From Clostridia bacterium (GTDB taxonomy: Bacteria; Bacillota; Clostridia; Oscillospirales; Butyricicoccaceae), in NCBI GenBank assembly GCA_021205365.1, contig JAJPXP010000032.1:1-64000 (forward strand): DNA of 64,000 nucleotides. The letters are read 5' to 3'. Shown here piece after piece: positions 15,504-48,165 of this stretch (the first letter of the stretch is position 1; every line of letters begins with the position of its first letter). The translations under genes were made by a program, and so were the position numbers. The notes beneath the pieces are model-generated. The model worked only from the letters and a program-made list of their open reading frames with translations, was not told the origin of the DNA and searched no databases.

Positions 15504-15522
15504 TATCTCTATATTGAGTACA

Positions 15523-16683
15523 TTATCTTCCGCTGATCTGATATCTTTGATAGAGCTTCGCACCCAGCCATGCCATCAGAACAACCGCAACAGCATATAC
15601 GATAAGCATCATCTGCCAACCAGTCAGATAATATCCCGGAATGTGGTACAGACAGTCATTTGTCAGCATCCGATCCACCAATACATTTACGGGAAGCAAT
15701 GCGTACAGTCTAAAAATCAACTGCATGGAATACGGCGGCCATACAAACAGGCACAGCATGAATCCTCCTATCAAAATACCCAAAACAGCAATGCTGTTTT
15801 TCAGCAGCTTCACAAGGAACATGGCGAGCACACTGTACAGCACAGATAATACCAATGCCATTCCAAGAGCCAGCAGGGCTGCCTGCCCAACGGTCATCGT
15901 CCAAGAGCATTCCGCTACGACCATCTGCATACATGCATCAAATCCATCTGCGCCGTATAACCACAAGTTCAATACGCACGTAATGATTTCCAATAGTACA
16001 GCGGACAACACGCCAAAGCTTACGCCTGCCAACAGCTTAGCACCATATAGCTTCTGCTTTCCAAACCTGCTGCATAAAATCAGCTGGTCTGTTTTTCTGG
16101 TATGTTCTTCTGCAAATACCCCCGGCAGACAAATCGCAAGCAAAAACAGCAGCAGGATATTCAGCAAGTTTTCACTTACGAGGATACTTTGAAAACCTTC
16201 CGCATACTGCCATTTAAACGGGGAAATTTCTGCTTCTTTCTGCTCCCAGTAATCCTTCTCTCCGTCTGTAAGATATTGGAGATTCCACAATCTGTGGACG
16301 CCTTCAAGCCGCGTGCGGTACATTGTATCCGCATCCGAATGGTATACCTTTTCATCATCTCCATACAGTCCCCAGAGATATTCATATATCCCTTCGTATT
16401 GCTTTGCCGCCTGTTCGGATGTATCAATTGCCGCCCGCATATCGTCCAGCATTGTGTCATCTATCATCCTGCCGGAAATAGAACGGGATGCTTCTGCTCT
16501 GCGCTGTATCTGTGTATATCCATTGATATTCTCATTGTCACCATCGCTGTAATTGTAAAACAGCGCATCTCCGATTACGGAAAGCACCGCTAAAAATACC
16601 ATGACGCCAAGGGCAATTTTGGTAATGCGCCGCCGCCAGATTTTTTTCAGTTCCCAGAAATATAAATCGGAAAATTTACTCAT
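15523..16683 (-). CDS. ABC-2 type transporter permease
   Basis: A 386-residue membrane protein. One helix near the N terminus (about 21-42) precedes an external region of about 120 residues, and at least five helices lie in the C-terminal half (from about 165 on). This is the usual ABC-2 permease plan. The start overlaps the ATPase stop by four bases (ATGA), so it is the membrane partner of that ATPase. No substrate can be inferred. Confidence 0.82.
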   Translation of the reverse strand: MSKFSDLYFWELKKIWRRRITKIALGVMVFLAVLSVIGDALFYNYSDGDNENINGYTQIQRRAEASRSISGRMIDDTMLDDMRAAIDTSEQAAKQYEGIYEYLWGLYGDDEKVYHSDADTMYRTRLEGVHRLWNLQYLTDGEKDYWEQKEAEISPFKWQYAEGFQSILVSENLLNILLLFLLAICLPGVFAEEHTRKTDQLILCSRFGKQKLYGAKLLAGVSFGVLSAVLLEIITCVLNLWLYGADGFDACMQMVVAECSWTMTVGQAALLALGMALVLSVLYSVLAMFLVKLLKNSIAVLGILIGGFMLCLFVWPPYSMQLIFRLYALLPVNVLVDRMLTNDCLYHIPGYYLTGWQMMLIVYAVAVVLMAWLGAKLYQRYQISGR

Positions 16684-17384
16684 TCCAGCCCCTCCTCATC
16701 AAATTCCCGCAGATAAAATTCCTCCAGATCACCATGGGCTTCATCCCATGCCCCGTTATAGATCACCTGTCCATCCTTCATCATGATGACAATATCCGCA
16801 ATATGCTCAATATCTGAAACAATATGTGTTGACAGCAATACAATACTGTCCTTTCCCAATTCGGCAATCAGATTGCGGAACCGGACACGCTCCTTCGGAT
16901 CAAGCCCTGCTGTGGGTTCGTCCAAAATCAGCAGCTTTGGATGGTTCAGCAATGCCTGTGCAATGCCAAGCCGCTGCTTCATGCCGCCAGAATAGGTCTT
17001 GATTTTCTGCTTTGCGTTATGTTCGAGTGAAACCAGCTTTAACAGCTCCTGCGCCCGGCGTTTTGCCTGCGGCTTGGGCAGTCCCTTGAGTGCTGCCAGA
17101 TATAACAGGAAATCCATTCCCGTAAAGTCGGGATAATATCCAAAATCCTGCGGCAAATATCCCAATATCGCACGGTATTCCTCTGTGGAAACATCCATTC
17201 CTTCCAGCGTTACTGTCCCACCGGTCGGCCTTAAGATACCGCACAGCATGCGCATCAATGTTGTCTTACCTGCGCCGTTTGCTCCCAGCAGGCCGGTTAC
17301 ACCCGGTGTCAGATTCAGGCTGACACGGTCTACCGCAATTTTATTTCCGTACTGTTTTGTCAGCCGGTCGATTTTTAATTCCAT
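16680..17384 (-). CDS. ABC transporter ATPase, ABC-2/CcmA type
   Basis: A 234-residue ATPase: Walker A GANGAGKTT near residue 38, Q-loop YLPQDFGYY near 80, signature YSGGMKQRLGIA near 132, Walker B LLILDEPTAGLD near 152 and the His-switch LLSTHI near 190. The YLPQDFG form is typical of the single-cassette bacitracin/antibiotic-export-like group. The ORF track runs 96 codons too far upstream; GGAGGAATATAT before the ATG at 17384 decides the start. It overlaps the upstream membrane-protein gene by ten bases. Confidence 0.92.
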   Translation of the reverse strand: MELKIDRLTKQYGNKIAVDRVSLNLTPGVTGLLGANGAGKTTLMRMLCGILRPTGGTVTLEGMDVSTEEYRAILGYLPQDFGYYPDFTGMDFLLYLAALKGLPKPQAKRRAQELLKLVSLEHNAKQKIKTYSGGMKQRLGIAQALLNHPKLLILDEPTAGLDPKERVRFRNLIAELGKDSIVLLSTHIVSDIEHIADIVIMMKDGQVIYNGAWDEAHGDLEEFYLREFDEEGLE

Positions 17385-18088
17385 ATATATTCCTCCATAT
17401 GTGAGAGATAGTTTTTGCATTCCCGAAGCATCAGCGCCAGAAGCAGCGGTGTGATAACAGCGCAGCTCTGCCAGCTGGATATCCAGCTCAGCCAGTCGGT
17501 CATGAAATTTACTACGATGCACAGCAGGCTGACCAGCATTGTCACTGCCGCGCAGGGATACAGGTTTTCCTTGCTGTGCCATTTGCGGATAATATGAAGA
17601 TTGCAGAACGCAGTCAGGCAGTATGGGCAAAGGATATAAAATCCAGTTTCCAGAATGGTCAACTGCCCCCATACACCAATCACAGGAGAAAGTGCTGCCA
17701 TGAGAATCAAATTTGCAGCCCCCAAAATGCCCAGGCGCGCCAGTGTTACCGCTTTTAGGGAAAAGCGGGATGCCTGCTCCAGTTCATCCATTCCACAGCG
17801 CACAGAACGGTTCATCTCCATAAAGGTGGAGAGCGCTGCAAATGGGATCAGCGCAGATACCATCCAGACACACTGTTCGTCTGTATTCCACATCAGCAGC
17901 AGTGCTGCCACGAAAACACCTATCGACATCAGCCATCCCCATGGACGGATATAGCCGAACTGGGAAAGGACAAATTCTGGCATCGTCAGCGTTGATACCT
18001 CAATGCTATCCAGAAAAGCGTTTTTTTTCTGTGATTTGGGAGGTTGATATACCGATTTTAGTGCCTGCTTCAGCTGTTTATCAGTCAT
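17375..18088 (-). CDS. Membrane protein coupled to sigma factor and ABC genes
   Basis: A 237-residue protein I cannot assign to a named family. A basic cytosolic N terminus of about 45 residues precedes six hydrophobic segments, and the C terminus is cytosolic. It lies between an ECF-like sigma factor (eight-base overlap) and an ABC pair (ten-base overlap). That position suggests either an anti-sigma role for the N-terminal region or a second permease subunit; the sequence does not decide between them. Confidence 0.75.
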   Translation of the reverse strand: MTDKQLKQALKSVYQPPKSQKKNAFLDSIEVSTLTMPEFVLSQFGYIRPWGWLMSIGVFVAALLLMWNTDEQCVWMVSALIPFAALSTFMEMNRSVRCGMDELEQASRFSLKAVTLARLGILGAANLILMAALSPVIGVWGQLTILETGFYILCPYCLTAFCNLHIIRKWHSKENLYPCAAVTMLVSLLCIVVNFMTDWLSWISSWQSCAVITPLLLALMLRECKNYLSHMEEYIWN

Positions 18089-35617: not shown

Positions 35618-35645
35618 ACAAAAGAACACCCATCAAGTCGATGGG
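35618..35645. repeat. attL core, 28-bp direct repeat
   Basis: Identical over 28 bases to 48138-48165. It contains AACACCCATCAAGTCGATGG. Here the right arm of the terminator palindrome is lost after GATGGG, whereas the right-hand copy keeps the whole hairpin, so the junction lies in this core. Confidence 0.85.
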
Positions 35646-35745
35646 ATTTTGTTATATTGCTGCCTATAATAAGTTATAGAACAACGGTGTTTTCCCTTCT
35701 ATCCCATGATTTTATCCCCGCTATTTGTCGTCGCAGTTCTTTCAC

Positions 35746-35775
35746 TTCACCCTAATTTCACCCCAAATTCACCCC
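35746..35775. repeat. Left arm-type integrase sites
   Basis: Three direct copies of TTCACCCyAAA-like words at exact 11-bp steps (35746, 35757, 35768), about 100 bp inside attL. The same words recur near attR. Confidence 0.6.
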
Positions 35776-35821
35776 TGCCAGAATTACAAATAATTATCAC
35801 TGAAATAACACACCGTGTGGC

Positions 35822-35953
35822 TTTCAACGATAAAATGAGCATGTTTTTAACATCGTAGATCGCCCGTGCAAGAGACAGGATGTAGCGAGTAATCGCCGGA
35901 TCTGTTTTCTTATGGTCCAACTTCACATGATTGGTTGTCCAGTAAAACTCCCG
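35822..35953 (-). pseudogene. Gene fragment without start codon
   Basis: A frame open on the minus strand reads as plausible protein (WTTNHVKLDHKKTDPAITRY, then ILSLARAIYDVKN) but is preceded directly by a TAG and has no start. It looks like a decayed element gene. Family not recognised. Confidence 0.35.
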
Positions 35954-35984
35954 CTAAATATATAATCTTCTCTAAGTATTTGAT

Positions 35985-36941
35985 TTAATATCCTTCATAT
36001 ATATCGAACGTTCCTTTAAATCCGTACCTGCGCAGTTTGATTTTTTTGATTCGCAACGCCTCGGAATTTTCAGCCTCAAATGCAGTAAAATACCATGTAG
36101 TATCTGAAGATATGCGACTGATTATTTTCTTAATGTAAACACTATCTACTTTTCCATAACTAAATCCATAAGAATAGACCTTATCAACATTACAATCGAG
36201 TTTTTTGAAAAAGTCACTGTATTTCTTTAACGGTGAAGCCGTATCTTTCTTAAACGACATCACCATATCATCTAAAAAAGAGGATCTAATGCCCGGGCCC
36301 GTTGAGAGATCATTGTTAAACTGATTGTACGTTACATCGTCTTTTTCGTGTCCAAAAATAAGCTTTTGCCCAACACGATTATGAATATGAATAACTTTTT
36401 TGATTCCGTATAGTTTCTGTAATGTTTTGGTGTAATTAAACGTAAGGAACTGTGTATCAGGTTGATAGAAAAGAGCCTTTAATGTGTCTTTACCTTTGAA
36501 TTCCCCATCGTCTATTTGTGCTTGAATACTTTTTATCCATAACCTAAAAAAATCTTGCCATATTTTAGCACAATTTATAAAACCGCTTGTAAGCACATCC
36601 ATATAAAGCAGATAGTGCATCATCAATTCTTGATCTTCTTTATCTGTTTCATTTTCTTTGTGATTCGCCATAGGTAGCTTGCTGTTAAAATTTATATACG
36701 CTAATGCTTCTTCAAAATTACACCAGTTTTTCCCGGCAATCTTATCCATTGTGTTCAATAAGATTTCGGCTGCAAATTCATTCTGATCAATATTTTCAAA
36801 GTCTTCTAAATATACAACTTCATCACGAAACTCAAGTGCTTCCGGATACAAGTCAATCACAAATGATCTGAAATCGCTATATTTTGTAAAAATTCCATGT
36901 GCGATATCGAAACCATTTCCTATTATAAATAAAGAACCCAT
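35985..36941 (-). CDS. AbiH-family abortive infection protein
   Basis: A 318-residue protein matching the bacteriophage abortive-infection AbiH family. It starts with the nucleotide-binding-like FIIGNGFDIAHGIFTKYSDF and has the conserved TQFLTFNYTKTLQKLYG near 165, VIHIHNRVG near 186 and IFGHEKDD near 197. Family members block phage growth at a late step by an unknown mechanism. It is AT-rich, alone on its transcript and sits at the left end of the element, the usual cargo position. I found no strong ribosome site (weak AAGGGGG about five bases before the ATG). Confidence 0.82.
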   Translation of the reverse strand: MGSLFIIGNGFDIAHGIFTKYSDFRSFVIDLYPEALEFRDEVVYLEDFENIDQNEFAAEILLNTMDKIAGKNWCNFEEALAYINFNSKLPMANHKENETDKEDQELMMHYLLYMDVLTSGFINCAKIWQDFFRLWIKSIQAQIDDGEFKGKDTLKALFYQPDTQFLTFNYTKTLQKLYGIKKVIHIHNRVGQKLIFGHEKDDVTYNQFNNDLSTGPGIRSSFLDDMVMSFKKDTASPLKKYSDFFKKLDCNVDKVYSYGFSYGKVDSVYIKKIISRISSDTTWYFTAFEAENSEALRIKKIKLRRYGFKGTFDIYEGY

Positions 36942-37726
36942 TATTTCCCCCTTAAAAAGTCTACATTATTCAAGCGTAAAGGCTCCAACCTCGTTGTCAT
37001 CAATAACAAAATGCAAAAAAACACGGCCTTGCTCATAGCAACAAAGTATGCAGTAAACGGTAAAATAGAGTCCACGCAGTCTAACCGTACAACTGCATCA
37101 TCAGCGCAAAGTCCTGTAATTAATTGTAGTACACAAACAACAGAAATACAAGATCATGCCTTTGCAGGTAGAGGTACAGTGTGTCGAGATGGGACCCGAA
37201 CTCCTAGCCTGATGGATCCATCCCTGCGGCCAATTGCGCTAATCTCAGATATTCAGTAGAGTTCTGAGGGGATCCCAATTCCACAGCAAGCATGTCTGGA
37301 ATGCTGGAATGTGGTACCAATCCTTGTCCTCTGGCAGCACAGGTGATCTTTTACTAATTTGTACATGAAATTATTACACTCTGTTAAAATAGGTGCGCTT
37401 AGAATAGTTTCAGGCAACAAGAAAAAGCAGATGCAGAATGTGCCTGCTTTTGTTATTTTGCTCTCAGATGCCCTGTATTGCGTTTTACCTGCTCAACATG
37501 AAATTACACCATGAGCAGAAGAAACGCGCAGGAAGGGGCGCTGACGCTTGAAAGAACGCATGTTCTGGTTGGATGTATAGCAGGCGGGAGTATTTACCGA
37601 TTTTACAGGCCCTAAAAAGGGGTTGTCGTCCGGATTTCGGACAAAAAGAAAAGAGCAGGCCGCTGCGGGTCTGCTCTGTGTGGTTTTGCGCCGACAATTT
37701 TCGTTGTCAATTGCCGAAATGTAATA
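36942..37726. other. Non-coding stretch in the element
   Basis: No credible ORF in about 780 bases; the 82-aa plus-strand ORF at 37011 has no ribosome site and low complexity. It contains a T-terminated hairpin AAAAGCAG/CTGCTTTT (37423-37451) and a stretch at 37170-37240 that on the minus strand resembles a degenerate tRNA. Confidence 0.5.
37641..37677 (-). terminator. Terminator of the XRE/DUF2971 pair
   Basis: AGAGCAG and CTGCTCT; on the minus strand the stem is followed by CTTTTCTTTTTG. Confidence 0.65.
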
Positions 37727-38488
37727 TTAAAAAGTGATCTTTTCTGCAAAAATCTCATATGTGCATGGCTTGATACGCATGTGGTAAAGATCAATAGTTT
37801 TTTTCTTGCATATTTCGACCATCTTTTGACAGTCCTCATCACTGGTCTTGACTCCTAAATAAATTGCTCGTATTCTGGGAGCCTTTTGCAAACCGAACTT
37901 GCGTGAAGAAAAAAGTACTCGCCACTCATTTTCATAAGACCAATCAGCCGATTTTGTTATTATAACCGGAAGATAACAATTCCGATTATCGGAGTTTTCC
38001 ACTGTATAAACTGAATTACGATAACAAACAGGATAAACGAAATCGTAAAATTCAGACTCAGAAAAATCATATTCAATACAGAACCCTTTGTGACCGTCTG
38101 CATAATGGCTCCACATCAGTTTTGATTTATTATCCTCCATAAAACAACAAAGAGTAAATCGTTGTAACGTTTGTTGGCGAAAATTCTCATTCTTGCGGTT
38201 ACATATCTCGGCTATCTCGTCTGCAAAGCCCGGGATATTTACAATTTTCACTGCAGAGTCAACTATATTAGATTTTAACTTAAAAGAAAATTCAAAAGGA
38301 TCATTGAAGTCTTTTGGATAGCTCATCCACATTTTTTCATTTTCAATCGCTTTTAAGTTATTCTCATTAAAACTTCTATATCTGTACAATGAGTAACCAA
38401 GATCAGCAAGCGACTGATTCTTAATTCGCTTTGCTTTGTTAATATCCAATCCCCAAATCGCTCGGCTGTATTCATCTCTCCAGATCAT
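37727..38488 (-). CDS. DUF2971 protein
   Basis: A 253-residue soluble protein of the DUF2971 type. Recognisable pieces are SLYRYRSFNENNLKAIEN near residue 33, MWMSYPKDFNDPFEF near 54, MWSHYADGHKGFCIEY near 123 and WSYENEWRV near 188. The function is unknown; members are often found in phage and island cargo. GGAGGAATAAA before the ATG at 38488 sets the start. It overlaps the stop of a small XRE regulator upstream, so the two form one regulated unit. Confidence 0.82.
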   Translation of the reverse strand: MIWRDEYSRAIWGLDINKAKRIKNQSLADLGYSLYRYRSFNENNLKAIENEKMWMSYPKDFNDPFEFSFKLKSNIVDSAVKIVNIPGFADEIAEICNRKNENFRQQTLQRFTLCCFMEDNKSKLMWSHYADGHKGFCIEYDFSESEFYDFVYPVCYRNSVYTVENSDNRNCYLPVIITKSADWSYENEWRVLFSSRKFGLQKAPRIRAIYLGVKTSDEDCQKMVEICKKKTIDLYHMRIKPCTYEIFAEKITF

Positions 38489-38489
38489 T

Positions 38490-38705
38490 TTATTCCTCCG
38501 GTTCTTCAACGTATTCCATGATATCCCCCGGCTGACAGTCAAGAGCTTTACACAGCCTTGCAATAGAACGATGATCGAGACCACCAGTCCCGTTTTTGAT
38601 TGCTGTCAGTGTGGCTTGTCCCAATATTTTTTCTTTCCTAATGCGATATGATGTGTATCCCTTTTCTTCCAGCAGTTTCAACAACTTATCATATTTAATC
38701 GGCAT
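38490..38705 (-). CDS. Small XRE-family regulator
   Basis: A 71-residue protein consisting of one Cro/C1-type helix-turn-helix (YRIRKEKILGQATLTAIKNG, then SIARLCKALDCQPGDIMEY). It is the short form typical of self-regulated cargo or toxin-antitoxin-like operons. It is cotranscribed with DUF2971. Inverted repeats in the upstream region are likely its operators. Confidence 0.88.
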   Translation of the reverse strand: MPIKYDKLLKLLEEKGYTSYRIRKEKILGQATLTAIKNGTGGLDHRSIARLCKALDCQPGDIMEYVEEPEE

Positions 38706-38762
38706 ATATTACATCTTCCTTTCCCGGTAGGGAGCTCAAATGATGAACATCCTTTTCCACCA

Positions 38763-38822
38763 TACACATTATAGCGCAATGTGTACACTAACTCAAGTGA
38801 CAAAACAGATAAAATATGTCAC
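38763..38822. promoter_or_regulatory. Two inverted repeats upstream of the XRE gene
   Basis: TACACATT/AATGTGTA with a seven-base centre (38763-38785) and AGTGACA/TGTCACT (38796-38822). They lie between divergent genes and are candidate operators. Confidence 0.5.
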
Positions 38823-38844
38823 TAAAAATTGTGCATATCGCTGG

Positions 38845-38873
38845 TAGACATACACTAAAGATAGTGATATACT
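38845..38873 (+). promoter_or_regulatory. Promoter of the small-protein cassette
   Basis: TAGACA, 17 bases, TATACT, followed by an untranslated leader of about 115 bases before the ATG at 38996. Confidence 0.55.
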
Positions 38874-38995
38874 ATAATCACAGCAAGGGAAAAGGACAAA
38901 GGCCGGATGGACACAGCTTCTTCGGTGTGGATATCCAAGACGGAAACAAGCTCCGGTGCTCTTCCAGCTGAATAAACCATAGGAGGGTACATATT

Positions 38996-39271
38996 ATGAG
39001 CATTATTGAATTGGACAGCAAGGTAGCTGAACTGAGAGAACTGCAAAGCATGATTGCAGAGCTTCAGGCAGAAGCAGAAGCAATCAAGGACACTATCAAG
39101 GGGGTCATGGTTAAACGTGGAGAGGAAACCATCTGCGGCAACGGCTGGAAAGCAAGCTGGAAGAATGTCAACAGCAGCCGTTTTGACAGCAAGCGTTTCA
39201 AGGCCGAATGCCCTGACCTGTATGCTGAGTACACCAAGCAGACAACGACCTGCCGGTTTGTACTGGCATGA
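38996..39271 (+). CDS. Phage-type small protein, YqaJ-associated type
   Basis: A 91-residue protein with an N-terminal coiled coil (about 5-40) and a C-terminal SSRFDSKRFKAECPDLYAEY..TCRF segment that recalls small proteins found beside YqaJ-type recombinases in phages and conjugative elements. This resemblance is from memory of the motif. AGGAGGG lies nine bases before the ATG. It opens a plus-strand cassette of four small genes. Confidence 0.65.
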   Translation: MSIIELDSKVAELRELQSMIAELQAEAEAIKDTIKGVMVKRGEETICGNGWKASWKNVNSSRFDSKRFKAECPDLYAEYTKQTTTCRFVLA

Positions 39272-39392
39272 CAAAAGCCCATTCTCTGAGCCGTAGGAAA
39301 GCAAATAGAGAATGAGCCTGTAAACCTACCCACAAAGGGAGATTGTACTTTCATTTTAGCATTACCTCCCGCCGGAATCAAGGAGACTTTTC

Positions 39393-39668
39393 ATGAACAC
39401 TTACAAAACCATCCGCCTGCGTCAGTATATTGTACAGGCGGTTGACCGCCGAACCGGTGAGCGCATTACAGACACTGTAGCTTATGAGCGCGGCGCGTCC
39501 CTGCTGCTGGGGACCTATGATACCGATCTGACAGACGCGATCAACCGTCAGTATTCTCGCAAGGGCTTTCAGGTCACGAACATCACCAAGGGCAAGTGCT
39601 GTACCTGTCGTGTGGAGCTGGGCGGTTTGTTTCATGCCGCGATGGAGGAAGAACAGCATGAAGGATAA
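39393..39668 (+). CDS. Hypothetical element protein
   Basis: A 91-residue protein, not recognised. AAGGAGACTTTTC precedes the ATG. It has a CCTC motif and an acidic tail; no membrane segment. Its stop overlaps the next small gene by 11 bases, showing translational coupling. Confidence 0.6.
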   Translation: MNTYKTIRLRQYIVQAVDRRTGERITDTVAYERGASLLLGTYDTDLTDAINRQYSRKGFQVTNITKGKCCTCRVELGGLFHAAMEEEQHEG

Positions 39669-39795
39669 AGCATATTACATGCACGGACTGTTCGATCTTA
39701 TTGGAGCGGCAAATCTCCGACATATCAAAGTCATTTGCGCGTTTGCCAGCGCATTCATGCGTGAGCAGATCGGCGCTGAGGAATCGGAGGGCTAA
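39658..39795 (+). CDS. Small element protein (45 aa)
   Basis: Too short for the ORF track's own start. GGAGGAAGAACAGC before an ATG at 39658 supports it. The segment LFDLIGAANLRHIKVICAFA resembles the short helical proteins that occur in phage and conjugative cassettes. It overlaps the preceding gene and precedes the next by three bases. Confidence 0.6.
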   Translation: MKDKAYYMHGLFDLIGAANLRHIKVICAFASAFMREQIGAEESEG

Positions 39796-39798
39796 ACC

Positions 39799-40206
39799 GT
39801 GCATTACTACCAGACCAAAGCTGAATGTTTCGCCAGCCCATATGAGCGGGAGGACGAGAACCCTGAACTTGTAAAATATGTGGATCAGCTGCCGGAGGGC
39901 GCAGTCTTCCAGATATTCGGACGTACATACCGCCGACAGAGCGATTTCAAACAGGGAGATACCGTTCTGTATATCTTGGATTCAATACGTACATATCTTG
40001 GGGAGAGCGGTTCACTGTTGATAGAAGGGCAAATAGTGTCACGGCGTTTTCGCGGCCTGCGCTTCGCCCGTGTAAGATCAGCAGACGGTTTCATAGAATC
40101 GGAATTCTACGCGGCGGGCGGCATCAGCTGCCTTATGATGCAGAACTTGCCGCGTTCGGATAAATATATTAAACGCACACCAGTTGGTGTGATGCTGGAT
40201 TCGTGA
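39799..40206 (+). CDS. Hypothetical element protein
   Basis: A 135-residue soluble protein starting at GTG, eight bases after GGAGG. Not recognised. The middle (RTYRRQSDFKQGDTVLYILD) looks like a beta-rich barrel. It ends the small-protein cassette. Confidence 0.6.
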   Translation: MHYYQTKAECFASPYEREDENPELVKYVDQLPEGAVFQIFGRTYRRQSDFKQGDTVLYILDSIRTYLGESGSLLIEGQIVSRRFRGLRFARVRSADGFIESEFYAAGGISCLMMQNLPRSDKYIKRTPVGVMLDS

Positions 40207-40258
40207 TTGAATAAAAATCCCTTGGCCATAAATCGACATTATATCGAACTGAACGCAA

Positions 40259-40293
40259 AACAGCCCGACGACCACATAGGCCTCCGGGCTGTT
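40259..40293. terminator. Hairpin between convergent genes
   Basis: AACAGCCCG and CGGGCTGTT. It could end the plus-strand cassette; the T-run is weak on both sides. Confidence 0.5.
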
Positions 40294-40314
40294 GTTCATC
40301 TACTGCTATGTTAT

Positions 40315-41091
40315 TTAAAAATACAACTTTTTTTCTGCTTTCTCCCAAATCTGCATGTTAATTTTTCCAAATGTCTCTTTCTTATGTAAAAGCAATTGGC
40401 AGTATTCCATTTTATAAACTTTGGCTAATTTTGCTTGGATTTCATTTTCTCTTTCCATGAGATCACGGCATACGCTGATTGCGCAAACACTTGTTAAGGC
40501 ATTATCCGCATTTTCGTTCTTCACAGCTTGAACACAAAGTGAATCTGCCATGGTCTCTTGCATAAGCTCAAAATAATTTGCTTTTATTTCACAAAATTTT
40601 TTCACCGCATCTTCGATTTCGTCAATAAATGCCCCAATTTCTTCATACTCTTCGGCCTGCACAGATAATTTTACCTTGTCTACAGAACTTCTTGCCGTTG
40701 CCTCGTACATTTGAAGTCTTATAATGAATATTTCAGGTTTAGAATTTTCTGCCGCATCAGCCATTATCTGTTGCATTTTTAAGGGATGCATATCTTCAAG
40801 CGCTCGGTTGATTATTTTTTCGATGTTGTTCCATTTCTCTTGCCGTTGGTGTAAATCCGCTTCATAAATTATTTGTTTTCTACTGAAAATTATTGTAACT
40901 GCCAACGTAAAAATTGCAACTGCTGCTCCGAGTAAAGTCCCGTAATAACTTAAAACATCTGCGGCCCCCCACAAAGTAATATAACCGATGTTTGCTTTAT
41001 AGCACTCGTTAATTAGAATTGGCACTCCAAAAATCAAGAAAACAAAAATTAAAACCAACAAAACACCTTTTGAATACTTCAGCCTATTCAT
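40315..41091 (-). CDS. Two-TM membrane protein, candidate cargo
   Basis: A 258-residue protein with two membrane helices near the N terminus (about 9-28 and 48-69, the second in LSYYGTLLGAAVAIFTLAVT) and a long helical cytosolic domain. Its low GC and isolated position in the left half of the element mark it as cargo. Two-helix proteins of this plan occur as membrane effectors in several phage-defence systems, but no catalytic domain is visible, so function is only a suggestion. Confidence 0.6.
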   Translation of the reverse strand: MNRLKYSKGVLLVLIFVFLIFGVPILINECYKANIGYITLWGAADVLSYYGTLLGAAVAIFTLAVTIIFSRKQIIYEADLHQRQEKWNNIEKIINRALEDMHPLKMQQIMADAAENSKPEIFIIRLQMYEATARSSVDKVKLSVQAEEYEEIGAFIDEIEDAVKKFCEIKANYFELMQETMADSLCVQAVKNENADNALTSVCAISVCRDLMERENEIQAKLAKVYKMEYCQLLLHKKETFGKINMQIWEKAEKKLYF

Positions 41092-41243
41092 ACTTACCGT
41101 CCTCTATCTCATCTGAAATCAAGTTTATAGTTCTCTGATGCTTGCGTTAAACACCGTACATATTTTTCAATAACTGTTTTGTCCACTTGTTTATAAATTA
41201 TAACCTATGCAAGAGCCAAAAGGAAGAGAAAGCAACTATCTTT

Positions 41244-41411
41244 CTACATAATACAGCAAGCGGCATGAATTGCATGCTTATTCGTCTTTGTGCACTCCGT
41301 GGCCTCATTATTACTGTGTTGGCGTTGTCTATACAGATCTCGATTGACTACACGCACATATAGCGGACCGATGAACATCAGCGCAATTTCCTTGATTCTT
41401 TGCATCAACAT
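41244..41411 (-). CDS. Doubtful small ORF (55 aa)
   Basis: An ATG at 41411 follows GGAAAGG at nine bases. The product is basic with a Cys pair at the end. Nothing else supports it. Confidence 0.2.
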   Translation of the reverse strand: MLMQRIKEIALMFIGPLYVRVVNRDLYRQRQHSNNEATECTKTNKHAIHAACCIM

Positions 41412-41492
41412 TGTGACGCGCCTTTCCAAAACCTTACCTACCTAAAATCTCACTATGTCGTTTTCAAGAGCAGAGTTCGCGGACAAAATCGA

Positions 41493-41522
41493 ACTGAGCA
41501 CTGAGCACTGAGCACTGAGCAC
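41493..41522. repeat. 7-bp tandem repeat
   Basis: Four perfect copies of ACTGAGC. Confidence 0.9.
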
Positions 41523-41635
41523 AAGATTCTCTGTTTCTTGTACCATGTCTGCGCTCACTTTGTGCTCATGCTCTTTACGGAGGCAAGGGCAACTTCTTTC
41601 GCCTGCTGGCTTGCTTTTGCTTCAGTTTTGCTCTC

Positions 41636-41765
41636 TTTTTAGGGACTCCGAAATCTCCGGATACTTCTTTTTTAGGGCCTCTAAAATCTCTAAACACTCG
41701 CCTTTTTAAGGGCTGAAAAATCTGAAAATACCGGTCTGTTTTAGGGTGTTAGAAATGTTACCACC
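41636..41765. repeat. Iteron-like array with doubled words
   Basis: Four degenerate units start with AGGG at 41641, 41674, 41709 and 41743 (steps 33-35). Each has a short word repeated on both sides of an AT-rich core: CTCCG-AAAT-CTCCG, CTCTA-AAAT-CTCTA, CTGA-AAAAT-CTGA, GTTA-GAAAT-GTTA. Placed in the non-coding gap downstream of the replication genes, it is a candidate origin. Confidence 0.6.
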
Positions 41766-41787
41766 ATCCCGCTGCACACGGCAATTT

Positions 41788-41884
41788 CTCTCTGTTCGCT
41801 CTCGGTTCAAGTCCCGATTTCTCGGCGTTCGCTCGGAGTTCAACCTCTAGTTTTCTCTAGCTTCGCTCGGGCTTCGTTCGAGCC
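41788..41884. repeat. Second repeat array with the same period
   Basis: Three units TTTCTC-N3/4-TTCGCTC at 33-34 base steps (TTCGCT at 41795, 41828, 41862). Doubled words recur here too: CTCGG-CGTTCG-CTCGG, CTCTAG-TTTT-CTCTAG and GCTTCG-CTCGG-GCTTCG. Confidence 0.6.
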
Positions 41885-41993
41885 TGATTGCTTTCCGCGA
41901 GATATTTGTGCAGTACGCCGTGTGAAGGTCAGTGTTGCACCGGGGAGGGTGGTACGCCCCTATGTCTTTAGTCCGAGATGCAATGCCCTCTGC

Positions 41994-42542
41994 TTACCAA
42001 GTATAAAGGCTATCCCTCAAATCCTTTAGAGTAATGTATTCGTTCAGCAATAGCGGGTGTCGGCCGGCCAACACATTGCGTATGGTTCTGGTGTCATATC
42101 TGGAGCGAAACATAATGCACTGAAACCGCATGTTTTCCAATGCCTGCAAGATTCTCAATTTGTCACGAAATCCCTGACGGCAAATTCTTTCATCCAAAAG
42201 AAAGTTCATGTAATCAAACGGATAATTAAACGCTATGCCATGTTTTGTGGCAAAGCGTTTCATCCGGTATTGAATCTCTGTGTATCCGCCCTTGGTACTG
42301 TTCTGGATCCCTCTGTATAGGTGGACATTCCCACACGTCCGGCAAAGCAGCCTATGACCGCAGAGGTACAGCCGTTGAAACCTTCGGCCGCACACAGGGC
42401 ATACAAGAAAGTACCGTGTGCCAAAACCAGTTTGTTGTGGTGAAAGCGTCAGCGCATGTGCCGTATCCGTCTTGTACGCCACCTGTTCGCAGCACTCCGG
42501 CAGATACTTTTTGACATCAGATGCATTAATAGGTAGAATCAT
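41994..42542 (-). CDS. Zinc-ribbon element protein
   Basis: A 182-residue protein with a central zinc ribbon (CPVCGRRFQRLYLCGHRLLCRTCG, two CxxC pairs, near residues 48-71) followed by a basic helical region. It is the last gene of the leftward early operon and resembles nucleic-acid-binding accessory proteins of phages and plasmids. GAGGAG lies seven bases before the ATG. Function not known. Confidence 0.65.
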   Translation of the reverse strand: MILPINASDVKKYLPECCEQVAYKTDTAHALTLSPQQTGFGTRYFLVCPVCGRRFQRLYLCGHRLLCRTCGNVHLYRGIQNSTKGGYTEIQYRMKRFATKHGIAFNYPFDYMNFLLDERICRQGFRDKLRILQALENMRFQCIMFRSRYDTRTIRNVLAGRHPLLLNEYITLKDLRDSLYTW

Positions 42543-42571
42543 ATCTTTTCTCCTCGCTGAATTATAAAACC

Positions 42572-43405
42572 CTAAATACTAAGCTGTGCAGCCTCCCACA
42601 AGACCAGCTCCCGCCGGTACTCGGCCACATCCGGCTGTATGCTGTTGTCAGAACACCATGCCAGATACAGGGATATACCGTCATCTATGCGGCGCTCAAT
42701 CTCTTCATGGCCATCATTCCAGAGTATCCGGTTTTCTGCGTCCCACAGCTGCCTACGCCTGTCAATCTCGCTGCCCTCACGGATGTAGTACAGCTCAAAG
42801 GCTTGTATCGCTGGATCCCGTTTCAGCTTGCGGAATATCTTGTGCTGAAGCTGGTTACTCCTGGAGCTGCTGATGCCCTCGGCGCGTCCCCATGCTGTTA
42901 CGGTTTTGCCCTGCACATACACAGCGTTGATAAGTTCCTGCTCCCGATCAGTCAGGCGGGCGACTGCCCCACGTACGACGCGCTGAAGGTCTGTGATTTC
43001 TGCGCCGCCGGTCACGTCTATGCTTTCGTCTGCGATCATGTCAGCAATCGTAATATCCTCACCGCCCTGTACAGGTGTATCAACGGACACCGTAGGGATA
43101 ACGCGCATGACACCGTCACGGATATTAAGGGCCCGCATACAGGCTGATTTGATATGAAATCCCAGGTATGTACTAAACATGCCTTTGCCGGTCTGGTAGC
43201 CCATCACAGCATTGTGGAAGCCAATCCAGCACTCTTGCATCAGGTCATCTTCATCAATGCCAGCACGTCCACATAGGGATATGCACCGCTGAGAGAGCTT
43301 GTAGATTAGGCGGGACACATTCGCATACAGGACATTTTCAGCGTCCATGTCGCCCTCCTGTGCACGTACTGCAAGTTCCTCATTTGCCATTACTTCATAG
43401 TCCAT
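42572..43405 (-). CDS. Element-encoded sigma-70 family factor
   Basis: A 277-residue sigma-like protein. Region 2 is seen in ANVSRLIYKLSQRC and IDEDDLMQECWIGFHNAVMG (about 25-72), a short region 3-like segment follows, and region 4 in LTDREQELINAVYVQGKTV, then the HTH, lies near 150-190. A charged C-terminal extension of about 80 residues is unusual. It lies in the replication operon and may redirect host polymerase to element genes. AAGGATGG six bases before the ATG supports the start. Confidence 0.82.
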   Translation of the reverse strand: MDYEVMANEELAVRAQEGDMDAENVLYANVSRLIYKLSQRCISLCGRAGIDEDDLMQECWIGFHNAVMGYQTGKGMFSTYLGFHIKSACMRALNIRDGVMRVIPTVSVDTPVQGGEDITIADMIADESIDVTGGAEITDLQRVVRGAVARLTDREQELINAVYVQGKTVTAWGRAEGISSSRSNQLQHKIFRKLKRDPAIQAFELYYIREGSEIDRRRQLWDAENRILWNDGHEEIERRIDDGISLYLAWCSDNSIQPDVAEYRRELVLWEAAQLSI

Positions 43406-43465
43406 TGCAAGCCATCCTTTCCGGTGATATAATCAAATAACACAAGATCATCCGGAAAAGACGGA

Positions 43466-43527
43466 AGCCGCCCGGCGGGAGCATGTGCCCCTGTCGGACG
43501 GTTTTTCTTTGCATCCGGCGGGCGGCT
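43466..43527. promoter_or_regulatory. Inverted repeat upstream of the sigma gene
   Basis: AGCCGCCCG and CGGGCGGCT are exact complements 44 bases apart. A second stem (CTCTTTCCC/GGGAAAGGG, 43575-43609) ends in TTTTTT on the plus strand. The 266-base gap between the sigma and loader genes therefore carries structure that could attenuate or promote sigma expression. Confidence 0.4.
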
Positions 43528-43675
43528 CTGGTACAATAAAACCAGATAACCGCCCTGTGTGGTTGTGTTTATAGGCTCTTTCCCTGCTTGGTAGGCTGAC
43601 GGGAAAGGGTCTTTTTTATTGTCCGGCGTCGCCAACCGTCGGACATGAAATATATACAAGTTTTCTGCCCCTTAT

Positions 43676-44488
43676 TTAGAATTTTGTCCGATAGTTTTTA
43701 TTCGGATCAGCGTCAACATGTATCCAACATCCGCCGTCATTGCACCGTTTATAAATGCGTCCGCCTGTTGCTTCATCAAACTTTGATACAACATTCTGGA
43801 TATGTATTTCAGCAGAAAAAAGCGTAATTTTACTCGGGTCGTTGTACCGTTCATTAACGATTTCAAAAGAGAAATCAAATTCATCATCTGTCGGCATACG
43901 TCCCGCCCGTTTTTTGAAAAAATCATCCCAGTATAACAGAGGTGCATTTACCAGTCGGTTATATATGGACTCATATACATCACCTTTAAATTTCGCCTGT
44001 GACAGCTTTCGCATGGTTTTGCCCCAGCTGGCATATTCTCCACGCTTCCCCTGCTTCATCAGTTCAAGAAAGATTCCGCTGCAGGTATGTGTTTTGCCAC
44101 ACCCGGACTGTCCGGACAGATACCACCATCCGGAAGAACCTTGCCGGATACGCTCGACATAATCAAAGGCTTTCTTTTTCATGGATACAACCCATGGTGC
44201 ATACTCTTCCAGCCTGTCAAGTGTTTGCTCTTTCAGCCCGGGATTACCGGATAGTTCCGCCCAGCGTTCAGCCCGTGGACCCTTGATGCAATCACACCAT
44301 ACAGGAACTCTTGTCAACGTGTCCAAATCATCTTTGAATATAAAACCCTTGCCGTGGCATATAGGGCAATCTGGCCGCCCTTGTGTACCATGTTGTTTAT
44401 TTGTGATATCAGTAATAATCCGCTGACTTTTAGCAAAGCCATCAAAGGTTATGCTCTGGGTCTGAGAATATCCTTGCGTAATAGTCAC
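43676..44488 (-). CDS. DnaC/IstB-like helicase loader
   Basis: A 270-residue AAA+ ATPase. An N-terminal zinc motif (CPICHGKG...WCDC, near 42-67) precedes the P-loop GQSGCGKTH near residue 126 and Walker B APLLYWDDFFK near 185. The architecture is that of phage and conjugative-element helicase loaders that place host DnaB at the element's origin. The start is a GTG inside the initiator gene (47-base overlap), which is a weak point. Confidence 0.85.
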   Translation of the reverse strand: MTITQGYSQTQSITFDGFAKSQRIITDITNKQHGTQGRPDCPICHGKGFIFKDDLDTLTRVPVWCDCIKGPRAERWAELSGNPGLKEQTLDRLEEYAPWVVSMKKKAFDYVERIRQGSSGWWYLSGQSGCGKTHTCSGIFLELMKQGKRGEYASWGKTMRKLSQAKFKGDVYESIYNRLVNAPLLYWDDFFKKRAGRMPTDDEFDFSFEIVNERYNDPSKITLFSAEIHIQNVVSKFDEATGGRIYKRCNDGGCWIHVDADPNKNYRTKF

Positions 44489-45218
44489 TCTTTCCGTTGT
44501 CCTCTACCTCTTTTCTCTGATTACGTCCGCTGTTTTGATCTCTGTCCAGCCAGCCTGTAATGAACCGGACAATACCACGCGCAGTCTTACGCTTTGTCGG
44601 ATTTCCTTCCAGCCAACCAGCCATAGAGCGTAAAGCCTGCTCAATATCAACACCAGGGTAAAGCTGTTTCCAACCGTCTACCTGTTTCTGTGTAACCGGA
44701 TACATTTGACCAGTATTCAAAATTAATTCAATGAAAACAGGCTCCGTTGCTTCCGGTTCCGGCTCTGACTTGTCAGAGGTCGGAGCATTATTATATAACC
44801 TATCCTTACCTAACTCTAACCTATCCTTACCTAACCTATCCTGTGTATCCGGTCTGGATATATCCTGTATACATTCCGTATCCAGAGTGTATACATTGTC
44901 CGTAAGAGAAAGCATTTTCATTTCTTCTTTACATTTTGTAGGTCTATATCGGTCTTTCTGTATGTAATTACTCTGTTTCCAATGGCGTATAACTATAACG
45001 CCAGATTGAAACGGAATCAAAAAGCCTTTTGAAATCAGCATCTTCAAATCATCCTGTGCGCTGCCAAAATACCGGACCAGCCCTTTTGGATTATTCAAAA
45101 AACCATCGTCATCAGCTTCCATTCCCAAATGAAAATACAGTGCGCGTGTTGTCGCCGGCATATCCAGAAATGTATCACTGTTTACAACTGACCTTGCAAA
45201 CATTCTTCTTTCAGCCAA
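44442..45218 (-). CDS. Replication initiator / replisome organiser
   Basis: A 258-residue protein. Its N-terminal AERRMFARSVVNSDTFLDMP, then TRALYFHLGMEADDDGF is the hallmark of Lin1244/Lin1753-like phage replisome organisers with a winged helix that binds the origin. A variable middle has a tandem DRLGKDRLELGKDRLY repeat, and the C-terminal domain (about 165-230) probably contacts the loader. The start is a TTG at 45218, six bases after GAGGTG; the track's earlier start lies in the upstream HTH gene. Confidence 0.82.
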   Translation of the reverse strand: MAERRMFARSVVNSDTFLDMPATTRALYFHLGMEADDDGFLNNPKGLVRYFGSAQDDLKMLISKGFLIPFQSGVIVIRHWKQSNYIQKDRYRPTKCKEEMKMLSLTDNVYTLDTECIQDISRPDTQDRLGKDRLELGKDRLYNNAPTSDKSEPEPEATEPVFIELILNTGQMYPVTQKQVDGWKQLYPGVDIEQALRSMAGWLEGNPTKRKTARGIVRFITGWLDRDQNSGRNQRKEVEDNGKSDYYARIFSDPEHNL

Positions 45219-45222
45219 ATAT

Positions 45223-45561
45223 TCACACCTCAATTCGTCTGATTCCGCTGTTACCGGTAATATCTGGAGGGATATTATCTTGCCCATCTACACACATCAG
45301 CCAGCGTTCTACATTCGGCCAGTACAGCAGGTACTTTCTACCTACCTTTCGGCACGGAATAGCTCCGGAACGGATTGCCCGCCGCAGAGTATATTCTGAA
45401 ACGCCCATACCAGAGAGTTTGGCACGGTTCACAGTTTCAGCTACAGTCAGCATCTGCCTCTCCTCCGCAGGTCTGCCGGTCATCCGGTGCCGCTGTAGCA
45501 TATCCGGTTTCCTGTCAGTACCTTTTGGTAGTCTCATAAGACTTGTATTACTCATATCCAT
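45223..45561 (-). CDS. HTH protein, excisionase-like
   Basis: A 112-residue protein with a C-terminal MerR/excisionase-type winged helix (LTVAETVNRAKLSGMGVSEY, then AIRSGAIPCRKVGRKYLLYWPNVERWL). The N-terminal 35 residues are basic and unstructured. AGGAGGTGGAA sets the ATG at 45561. It could act as recombination directionality factor or as a regulator of the early operon. Confidence 0.75.
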   Translation of the reverse strand: MDMSNTSLMRLPKGTDRKPDMLQRHRMTGRPAEERQMLTVAETVNRAKLSGMGVSEYTLRRAIRSGAIPCRKVGRKYLLYWPNVERWLMCVDGQDNIPPDITGNSGIRRIEV

Positions 45562-45609
45562 TTCCACCTCCTAAATAGTGTCCTATCTCACGATTTTTCA
45601 TCATGACAA

Positions 45610-45768
45610 TCAGGGGTATAACTTTCCCTCTGCCTTAGGTCTATGACCCAAACGGTACTCGTAGAGCGGGCATTAAGCAATAGAACACCGTCTTACTTCG
45701 TGTGAGCTTCCACAGCGACAGTCAAGACACTTTGCCCGAATCGCCTTGATCGGTGTTCTTTTTGCCAT
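45610..45768 (-). pseudogene. Small Cys-rich phage protein with in-frame stop
   Basis: From an ATG at 45768 (GAGG seven bases upstream) the frame reads KRTPIKAIRAKCLDCRCG then EVRRCSIA, a TAA at 45673-45675, then CPLYEYRLGHRPKAEG to a TGA. The intact family has CLDC...EVR.CP...CPLYPYR.G in one chain, so the TAA splits a conserved zinc-binding domain. It is absent from the ORF track because each half is short. Either a recent nonsense mutation or readthrough. Confidence 0.75.
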
Positions 45769-45770
45769 TG

Positions 45771-45968
45771 CTATTCCTCTGTTTCAATGATGTCCAGCAC
45801 GTCAACACCAAGAGCTTTTGCAATCTTGCCAATAGTAGCGGGATTGACACCCCTGTTCAAAGCTGTTGACATGGTTCCATTGTTAAGTGCTGCAGCCTGT
45901 CCAACATCTTTTCTTGTCATGCAGGCGCGAGCACAAGCAATTTTGAATTTCCACTTATCGAGTTTCAT
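45771..45968 (-). CDS. Cro-like XRE regulator
   Basis: A 65-residue helix-turn-helix protein (KIACARACMTRKDVGQAAAL, then IGKIAKALGVDVLDIIE). It is the first gene of the leftward operon, directly under the strong promoter at 46013-46041 and opposite the repressor gene, the position of Cro in lambdoid switches. The Cys-rich small gene follows within three bases. Confidence 0.88.
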   Translation of the reverse strand: MKLDKWKFKIACARACMTRKDVGQAAALNNGTMSTALNRGVNPATIGKIAKALGVDVLDIIETEE

Positions 45969-45986
45969 GTGTTGTCACCTCTTTTT

Positions 45987-46041
45987 TGTTCCGTATGGAA
46001 CATTTTTTATTCATAATATCACCATTCGGAACGAATGTCAA
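45987..46041 (-). promoter_or_regulatory. Early leftward promoter with operators
   Basis: On the minus strand TTGACA (46036-46041), 17 bases, TATTAT (46013-46018). Operator-like sites share TGTTCC-N4-GGAACA: TGTTCCGTATGGAACA at 45987-46002 just downstream of the start, and a half-conserved site with GGAAC at 46022-46034 inside the promoter. Confidence 0.75.
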
Positions 46042-46069
46042 TAACACTTTAAGCATTCTTACAAAAAAA

Positions 46070-46100
46070 TGTTCCATTTGGTTCTATTCTGTGATATACT
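46070..46100 (+). promoter_or_regulatory. Repressor promoter with third operator
   Basis: TGTTCCATTTGGTTCT (46070-46085) resembles the other operators and lies where the -35 of a promoter with TATACT (46095-46100) would be; the -35 itself is poor. Confidence 0.5.
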
Positions 46101-46119
46101 CCGTTTAAGGAGTGATTTT

Positions 46120-46527
46120 ATGGAAGTTGGAAAAAAAATTCATGATATCCGAAAAAGCAAAAAAATGTCTCAAGCCGAATTAGCCGAAAAAGCCGGAATT
46201 TCGCTTATGAGTATTCGCAGATATGAAAAGGGAGATCGTGCTCCAAATACGGAACAACTTGCAAAAATAGCTGCTGCCCTTGGTGTATTTGTGGTTGATA
46301 TTGTAGATAACGCCTATTTTGACAATCTTCCAATGAAAGAAATTGATTTTATAAATCCTAATGCCAATCCTGAAACCTTACGTGCACGAAAGCTTCGCAA
46401 CCGTATGAACGCCGCTTTTGATCGGATGAATGAAACAGGGCAACAGGCTGCAGCTGAACGCGTGGAAGAACTCAGCCAGATACCGGCATACCAGAAAGCA
46501 AATCACGGAACTACTGAAAGCGAATAA
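46120..46527 (+). CDS. XRE-family repressor of the element
   Basis: A 135-residue protein with an N-terminal Cro/C1 helix-turn-helix (IHDIRKSKKMSQAELAEKAG, residues 7-26, ending with RRYEKGDRAP) and a C-terminal helical region that may mediate oligomerisation. It has no LexA-type or ImmA-type protease partner nearby, so induction is not by the classical self-cleavage route. AAGGAG precedes the ATG at 46120. It is divergent to the Cro-like gene and followed by the integrase gene. Confidence 0.9.
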   Translation: MEVGKKIHDIRKSKKMSQAELAEKAGISLMSIRRYEKGDRAPNTEQLAKIAAALGVFVVDIVDNAYFDNLPMKEIDFINPNANPETLRARKLRNRMNAAFDRMNETGQQAAAERVEELSQIPAYQKANHGTTESE

Positions 46528-46566
46528 CCGCACTGCTGCCGGCAACCAGGAAAGGAAGGTGCAGCC

Positions 46567-47961
46567 ATGGCAACAATAGAAAAGCGTCGGAACAAAGCTG
46601 GTAAAGTCATCTCGTATAGAATCACTGTTGCAGGCGGGATTGATACCACTGGTAAACAAATCAGACACCGCATGACCTGGAAGCCGGATGCAAAGATGAC
46701 CGCACGGCAGATTGACAAGGCTCTGGCTCGCGCTGCAGCTGACTTCGAGCGTCAGATTGAACAAGGGTACCAGTTGGATAACCGGCAGACTTTTGCTGAA
46801 TATACAGACTATGTCATTGCCCTGAAAGAACGCACCGGATTAAAGAAGCGTACCATTGACCGGTACCGTGAGCTTAAGGTTCGTGTTGATCTGGCAATAG
46901 GACACATGAAACTGATAGACATTCGTCCGCAACACCTTAACAGCTTCTATGAAAATCTCAGTGAACAGGGGATCCGGATGAACACCAACAGTGCAAAGGC
47001 TCGTATTGATCTAAATGCACTGCTGAAAGAAAATCATTTGTCTTATGCTGCATGTGCAAAGTTGTCTGCTGTTTCAGCTCCTACGGTTTCCGCAGCCGCA
47101 AATGGTAAATCAATCCGTTTATCTTCAGCTGACAAAATCGCTGCTACCCTTGGTATTTCTACCACTTCCCTGTTTACTCTGGAACAAGACAGCAAGCCCC
47201 TTGAACCAAGAACAATCCTTGAATATCATTGTTTTATCTCTGGTGTTCTGTCTCAGGCAGAAAAAGAACTGTTAATACCGTATAATCCCGCCAGCAAGGC
47301 AACCCCTCCCAAGGTTGAAAAGAAAGAGGTTGTATACTACCAACCGGATCAGCTGGCAAGGATCCTCAATGCTCTGGAAGATGCACCTTTGAAATGGAAG
47401 ACCTTTACCTATCTGCTGATAGACACCGGCTGCCGTCGTGGCGAAATTGCCGGCCTGAAATGGAAAAGCATTGATCTGCATTCCGGTATTATCACGATTG
47501 AACGTGCGCTGCTGTATAGCACAGCCCGCGGCACCTATGAGGACACTACAAAGAACCGTAAGAGCCGCACGCTGCATCTTGCTCCGGAGACAATCACACT
47601 GTTAAAGCAGCACAAGGCTTCACAGCTTGAAATGCAGCTTGCCAATGGTGATAGATGGAATGATACTGGTTTTGTGTTCACGCAGGACAACGGCTTGCCT
47701 ATCTGCCCTACTAGCGCAACACATTGGCTGGATGACTTTGCAAAGGCTCATGATCTGCCACATATCCACCCACATGCATTCCGGCACACTGCTGCATCTT
47801 TGATGATCGCCCAGGGCGTTGACCTGGTTACCACAGCAAATGAACTCGGTCATTCCAGTGCAATGGTCACAGCGAATGTATACGCCCATCAAATTGAAGA
47901 AGCCAAAGCCAAGGCAAGTAATGCACGTGCAAGTGTGTTTTCCCGCCAGCTGCAGGCATAA
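46567..47961 (+). CDS. Tyrosine integrase with inserted HTH domain
   Basis: A 464-residue site-specific recombinase. The arm-binding N terminus (about 1-65) and core-binding domain (75-140) are followed by an insertion of about 65 residues (142-208) that reads as an XRE-like helix-turn-helix (LSYAACAKLSAVSAPTVSAA, then LSSADKIAATLGIS). The core domain resumes and leads to the catalytic domain with Arg in GCRRGEI near 290, HAFRHTA near 399 and the Tyr in VYAHQ near 430. GGAAAGGAAGG precedes the ATG. It adjoins attR, as expected. Confidence 0.92.
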   Translation: MATIEKRRNKAGKVISYRITVAGGIDTTGKQIRHRMTWKPDAKMTARQIDKALARAAADFERQIEQGYQLDNRQTFAEYTDYVIALKERTGLKKRTIDRYRELKVRVDLAIGHMKLIDIRPQHLNSFYENLSEQGIRMNTNSAKARIDLNALLKENHLSYAACAKLSAVSAPTVSAAANGKSIRLSSADKIAATLGISTTSLFTLEQDSKPLEPRTILEYHCFISGVLSQAEKELLIPYNPASKATPPKVEKKEVVYYQPDQLARILNALEDAPLKWKTFTYLLIDTGCRRGEIAGLKWKSIDLHSGIITIERALLYSTARGTYEDTTKNRKSRTLHLAPETITLLKQHKASQLEMQLANGDRWNDTGFVFTQDNGLPICPTSATHWLDDFAKAHDLPHIHPHAFRHTAASLMIAQGVDLVTTANELGHSSAMVTANVYAHQIEEAKAKASNARASVFSRQLQA

Positions 47962-47965
47962 GAAA

Positions 47966-48000
47966 AAGCCGCCAGTTTTTACACTGACGGCTTAATTTTT
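47966..48000 (+). terminator. Integrase terminator
   Basis: AAGCCGCCAG and CTGACGGCTT (one mismatch), then AATTTTT. Confidence 0.75.
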
Positions 48001-48017
48001 GCTCGTTTTTTAAGGCA

Positions 48018-48036
48018 TTCACCCCAAATTCACCCC
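48018..48036. repeat. Right arm-type integrase sites
   Basis: TTCACCCCAAATTCACCCC holds two TTCACCCC words at an 11-bp step; the identical 19 bases occur at 35757-35775. Confidence 0.6.
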
Positions 48037-48137
48037 GCAGAAAAAACAGGATGAATTTTTCTCACAAAAAAGTTTTAATTTTTCAATATTTATTATTATT
48101 TTTTCTCACTTGCAGTATGCATTTAGTGTACCTATAT

Positions 48138-48165
48138 ACAAAAGAACACCCATCAAGTCGATGGG
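48138..48165. repeat. attR core, 28-bp direct repeat
   Basis: Identical to 35618-35645. It overlaps a perfect terminator hairpin, AGAACACCCATC/GATGGGTGTTCT (48143-48171), that serves the zinc-ribbon gene on the minus strand. Confidence 0.85.

Follow-up and report, generated by a model that had tools for sequence, protein, structure and literature searches.

The genes that an initial annotation had proposed as a possible multi-part phage defence island, namely AbiH, an XRE/DUF2971 pair, four small genes and a protein with two transmembrane segments (two-TM protein), form the left half of a 12.5-kb integrated element of a Clostridia bacterium (assembly GCA_021205365.1, contig JAJPXP010000032.1). 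The window analysed, the first 64,000 nucleotides of this contig, holds the element at 35618-48165. The reading we favour, with a probability of roughly 0.7, is that a phage-satellite-like element bears exchangeable, independently acquired anti-phage modules at the end opposite its integrase. The initial annotation had the cargo genes right but stopped at them, missing the satellite-like element and its exchangeable cargo end. Judged from sequence, the defence-island idea is well supported by context: it appears to hold for AbiH as a family member, and context supports DUF2971 and the two-TM protein as putative defence genes.

Both ends of the element are marked by the 28-bp repeat ACAAAAGAACACCCATCAAGTCGATGGG, the two copies of which match perfectly. 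The host genes flanking it, a DUF1858 gene and a zinc-ribbon gene, are adjacent in eight sister-species loci of the same genus. The empty site, a terminator hairpin AAGAACACCCATC...GATGGGTGTTCT between these two genes, was read in five sister-species loci, with a single base change in one. Because the flanking genes are adjacent and the hairpin is present in sister species, the element is a 12.5-kb insertion into a host terminator with both ends defined. Just inside each end lies one copy of a 19-bp sequence, TTCACCCCAAATTCACCCC; no such pair is expected by chance, and the copies are probably integrase arm-type sites.

Phage satellites have been given a working definition of 7-20 kb with attachment (att) repeats, an integrase, regulation, replication and no structural genes (PMC13376191). 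The element spans 12.5 kb between its repeats, with the empty site in sister species, and integrase, regulatory and replication modules are all present. No structural genes were recognised in a Pfam search of all listed element genes, nor in a PHROGs search covering the left half and the zinc-ribbon and sigma-factor-like genes only; the other right-half genes lay outside the latter, and three of the small genes are without any family. The right half matches the published description, and the element may be called satellite-like on this gene content. As in Gram-positive phage satellites and phage-inducible chromosomal islands, for example StCI of Streptococcus thermophilus (PMC13376191), att repeats, an integrase and divergent repressors are found, together with a xis-like gene, a phage-type replication initiator (Rep) with a helicase loader, defence cargo, a comparable size and no recognised structural genes. 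The element differs from them by its sigma-factor-like gene and by the helix-turn-helix (HTH) embedded in its integrase. Defence hotspots occur in P4-like satellites, and satellite-borne defence cargo is already known (PMC9122126).

A sister element (locus L043) occurs in a second species of the genus, where it occupies another site in the chromosome. Its gene order is the same (integrase, two XRE genes, Rep, DnaC, sigma-factor-like, zinc-ribbon), and it terminates in an Abi_2 gene, AbiD by PADLOC, at the end where AbiH is found here. Since the same backbone carries a different Abi gene at the same end, the end away from the integrase looks like an exchangeable slot for abortive infection (Abi) genes. 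The GC content at third codon positions (GC3) is low in the cargo (AbiH 0.31, DUF2971 0.35, two-TM 0.34, XRE 0.40), whereas that of the four small plus-strand genes is 0.53-0.62, close to the sigma-factor-like and zinc-ribbon genes; other backbone genes range from 0.30 to 0.48. On this contrast, AbiH, XRE-DUF2971 and the two-TM gene are probably three modules separately acquired amid backbone-like genes.

Table 1. Positions of element features in the window.
Feature	Position	Strand	Remarks
attL	35618-35645	.	28-bp direct repeat, in host terminator hairpin
19-bp sequence	35757-35775	+	second copy 48018-48036
AbiH, 318 aa	35985-36941	-	abortive infection family; PF14253 8e-47; PADLOC AbiH 3.1e-18
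DUF2971 protein, 253 aa	37727-38488	-	defence candidate PDC-S31; PF11185 1.1e-9; PADLOC PDC-S31 3.9e-50
XRE (HTH_26) regulator	38490-38705	-	HTH_26 1.2e-13; translationally coupled to DUF2971
Candidate operator	38763-38785	.	inverted repeat TACACATT-7-AATGTGTA; overlaps minus promoter-like site
Small gene 1, 91 aa	38996-39271	+	phage-like; phrog_434, phrog_1956; GC3 0.59
Small gene 2, 91 aa	39393-39668	+	no family
Small gene 3, 45 aa	39658-39795	+	no family
Small gene 4, 135 aa	39799-40206	+	GTG start; no family
Two-TM protein, 258 aa	40315-41091	-	relatives in restriction-modification loci
Zinc-ribbon protein	41994-42542	-	backbone; weakly conserved in L043
Sigma-factor-like protein	42572-43405	-	backbone; PHROG 351, 3.4e-31; 54% identical in L043
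DnaC/IstB-type helicase loader	43676-44488	-	
Phage replisome organiser/replication initiator (Rep)	44442-45287	-	43% to replisome organizer of Ruminococcus phage phiRgIBDN1
Excisionase-like HTH_17 protein	45223-45567	-	
Small XRE regulator	45771-45968	-	divergent from 46069 gene
XRE repressor	46069-46527	+	Stl-like position
Tyrosine integrase	46567-47961	+	embedded XRE-type HTH; Phage_integrase 4.2e-27; HTH_26 2.1e-6, residues 149-208
attR	48138-48165	.	second copy of 28-bp repeat

AbiH is a genuine member of its family, as had been claimed; the gene is intact and scores 160.9 bits against a PF14253 gathering score of 30.9. With reference to Lactococcus lactis AbiH (PF14253), the profile match spans nearly the whole length, and the GNGFD, FNYT and HxH motifs are conserved among relatives. 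The protein differs in matching the AbiH profile of PADLOC only moderately (3e-18) and in its location on a satellite-like element. AbiH has been predicted to belong to the Sir2 superfamily (PMC3506569); its mechanism was given as unknown in 2025, and its activity in S. thermophilus is narrow (PMC12322248). A single-sequence search of viral contigs returned no relatives of AbiH, the two-TM protein, the sigma-factor-like protein or small gene 4.

The DUF2971 protein had been suggested as a possible uncharacterised defence module. It is not wholly new, as it matches four PDC-S31 profiles in PADLOC, where the family is already listed as a candidate, although no discussion of it as a defence was found in the literature searched. 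Like PDC-S31 it has the conserved core MWSHYA..HKGFCIEY and a YEKEWR-like motif. The neighbourhood of its relatives, the check that had been named for this gene, was positive. A collection of 80 named DUF2971 loci gave 122 immediate neighbours, which were scanned for Pfam families; the commonest were SIR2_2, ResIII, N6_Mtase, SWI2_SNF2, Methylase_S, HSDR_N, RVT_1 and AAA_21. For comparison, 14 regions picked arbitrarily in genomes of the window's order yielded 117 proteins, among which metabolic families were the commonest. The tallies cover the first 25 families on each side and provide a clear contrast, not a p-value; the control regions come from one order and the DUF2971 loci span many phyla. 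Neighbours more than 6.5 kb away from DUF2971 were a poor control, with type I specificity subunits (by PADLOC) already among them (4/102), and random genome regions were therefore chosen. Against these, PDC-S31 lies in defence-rich neighbourhoods. In Vibrio corticovirus genomes, DUF2971 is found near a PfiAT toxin-antitoxin pair. In Stutzerimonas stutzeri (L056:8871-10936), an AbiC/putAbiC gene overlaps DUF2971 by 4 bp, and the two likely form a two-gene operon.

The XRE gene and DUF2971 are both real and translationally coupled, the GGAGG ribosome site of DUF2971 lying within the last codons of XRE, the stop of which is separated from the DUF2971 ATG by one base. The pairing itself did not prove general. 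At 94 other loci, DUF2971 was never found with an XRE-like gene upstream, from which the copy here differs; a conserved XRE-DUF2971 operon was rejected on this count, and the conserved regulator-effector pairing of XRE-type toxin-antitoxin systems is thus not seen. Translational coupling, together with an inverted repeat over a promoter-like site (Table 1), supports a putative control of DUF2971 by XRE. The AlphaFold (AF2) model of the DUF2971 protein is confident (predicted local distance difference test score, pLDDT, 92.5; predicted template modelling score 0.88). Fourteen residues are invariant among 33 sequences (N63, D64, W127, Y130, H134, G136, Y157, K180, W184, E187, E189, W190, R191 and G213), which suggests an enzyme pocket. 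An ADP-ribosyltransferase-like fold, prompted by the motifs, was considered and dropped; Foldseek gave no match in the PDB at E <= 0.001, and one distant viral model only was seen.

The two-TM protein is as described, hydrophobic over two segments (residues 9-27 and 51-69, approximately), and its relatives lend contextual support to the suggestion that it may be a defence module. It has no meaningful match in Pfam, NCBIfam, PADLOC or the PDB and is rare, with few relatives from searches of 87, 391 and 399 genomes. At L163 and L169, a full-length relative (32%) immediately follows a T5orf172-ResIII protein, T5orf172 being a nuclease domain of the GIY-YIG type. The L169 copy of this protein is scored by PADLOC as type IIG restriction, and an Eco57I methylase lies further upstream at that locus. 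The other relatives have the TM module in common only. The one at L165 is within an operon with an SNF2/ResIII helicase, DUF4391, a DNA methylase and a type III endonuclease, and the one at L171 lies 13 bases after PDC-S53, in a type I restriction-modification (R-M) locus that includes HsdR (L171:7725-11259). Further copies adjoin a relaxase and MobC (L164) or a serine recombinase (L047), or are near an integrase-like gene (L170). Four of the seven relatives thus sit in or beside type I, IIG or III R-M loci. This recurrent setting is informative because the relatives, six independent cases outside the window, were found by sequence and not by context. Common to the two-TM proteins is the N-terminal module INExYKxxxxYxTxWGAxDVLSYYGxxLGA, and their cytoplasmic parts are of two or more kinds.

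Tentatively, and at a little under even odds, these proteins would make up a family not yet described, whose members serve as anti-phage effectors or sensors in the membrane and form a second, membrane-level layer attached to restriction systems of types I, IIG and III and to satellite cargo; the family is the least-known part of the cargo. AbiC/putAbiC proteins likewise have N-terminal TM segments and a cytoplasmic part, and one of them is the protein overlapping DUF2971 in Stutzerimonas. The two-TM protein has no match to PF16872 (AbiC/putAbiC) and none to the Stutzerimonas protein, and homology to the latter was rejected. A membrane-anchored anti-phage function is also known from the membrane-bound nuclease SNIPE (PMC13190303), and the closest two-TM relatives adjoin a restriction-type protein, T5orf172-ResIII. 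Unlike in SNIPE, neither a nuclease nor a DUF4041 domain is recognised in the protein here, and no nuclease gene adjoins it.

The four small genes between DUF2971 and the two-TM gene are real. Overlap (11 nt) is confined to the second and third and not shared by all four, as had been described. Their proposed part in defence did not stand up, given a backbone-like GC3 and no family except the matches of small gene 1 to PHROGs of phage recombination-associated families; they are most likely genes of the element's backbone. Small gene 4 has no relative in the other 86 genomes of the family.

Separate regulation of the modules, which had also been claimed, is borne out in part. Divergent promoter-like sites (10/12) lie where they are needed, at 38796-38768 on the minus strand and at 38845-38873 on the plus strand, the latter facing the small genes. 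Counted together, promoter-like sites do not clearly exceed the number expected by chance (21 versus 14.4 +/- 4.1), and the region just upstream of the two-TM gene showed none. Terminator-like sites do exceed their chance number (14 versus 5.3 +/- 2.7). A strong one on the plus strand (37652-37677) has no clear gene preceding it. Long non-coding stretches are present in the left half at 36950-37720 and 41100-41990. Within the latter, 41493-41877 holds repeats spaced 33-35 nt apart (four copies of TTTTAGGGxCTCxxAAAT, three of ATTTCTCxxxGTTCGCTCxxxGTTCAA), as well as a tandem ACTGAGC; these may be replication-origin iterons. The stretch 37175-37250, on the minus strand, appears by eye as a degenerate tRNA with D-arm- and T-arm-like parts; ARAGORN and Rfam found no tRNA or known RNA family in the non-coding stretches, this one included.

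The integrase of the element is unusual in having a Cro/C1-type HTH (HTH_26) that separates the core-binding from the catalytic part. The same genome encodes another integrase of the family, 62% identical (G000:C34; L014, 15501-16925), the sequence of which appears to include a similar HTH-like stretch. At this locus (15501-17459), close to the contig end, an XRE gene lies alongside.

Could the element be a degraded prophage and not a satellite? Its Rep and helicase loader are phage-type and decayed prophages can reach such a size, but the sister element, located elsewhere in the chromosome of another species, has kept this compact backbone and shows no structural family among its tested proteins, which repeated decay would not readily yield; this origin is quite improbable. 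Very improbable, too, is a left half that is a graveyard of hitch-hiked modules, neither expressed nor useful any longer. The long non-coding stretches and the degenerate tRNA-like stretch suggest past rearrangement; all cargo genes are nevertheless intact with good ribosome sites, and the att repeats, identical over 28 bp, are consistent with a fairly recent insertion.

Other alternatives concern single modules. XRE-DUF2971 could be a toxin-antitoxin addiction module that retains the element in the chromosome and is not directed at phages, an account favoured by the tight translational coupling, the likely autoregulatory operator and the closeness of DUF2971 to PfiAT in Vibrio corticoviruses. 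DUF2971 does not in general require XRE to be tolerated, since no such gene was found upstream at the 94 other loci, and its R-M, SIR2 and reverse transcriptase neighbours better fit defence. We regard this account as improbable, and the two readings overlap, as such pairs can be defences. The two-TM protein might instead serve ordinary element biology (entry exclusion, immunity to its own kind or lysis timing), as the relatives on mobilisable or recombinase-bearing elements (L164, L047) would allow; with four of seven relatives next to or inside R-M loci, this is unlikely. For a satellite-like element with exchangeable anti-phage modules, several points weigh on the other side. No packaging, capsid-interference or helper-interference gene was recognised in the element, the first two being also a difference from known satellites, and the exchangeable slot is drawn from two elements only. 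A Sir2 fold of AbiH found no confirmation in a low-confidence model (pLDDT 57.5), and in profile comparison with SIR2-like neighbours only FLTFNYT/IITTNYD aligned, without significance. The chemistry of DUF2971 is a guess, since there is no fold match, and the two-TM sample consists of only six independent relatives outside the window.

In the mechanism proposed, each cargo module would work alone. AbiH, as a predicted Sir2-superfamily enzyme, would, after a phage has been sensed, attack an essential host molecule, by NAD+ depletion or ADP-ribosylation, leading to abortive infection. DUF2971 would act as a cytoplasmic enzyme-like effector with strongly conserved polar residues (Y36/Y38, N63-D64, H129/H134, E140, K180, E187/E189/R191), and the coupled XRE repressor would hold it low until infection lifts repression. 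The two-TM protein, a putative sensor or membrane anchor whose cytoplasmic part varies, would act at the cell membrane, where it may sense entry or disrupt the membrane as a back-up to the other defences.

What is new here is the apparent Abi slot of this element family and a candidate family of membrane proteins. DUF2971, a listed candidate, and the unlisted two-TM family become small, separable and testable modules, and DUF2971, with a confident model and no solved counterpart, is a good target for structure determination.

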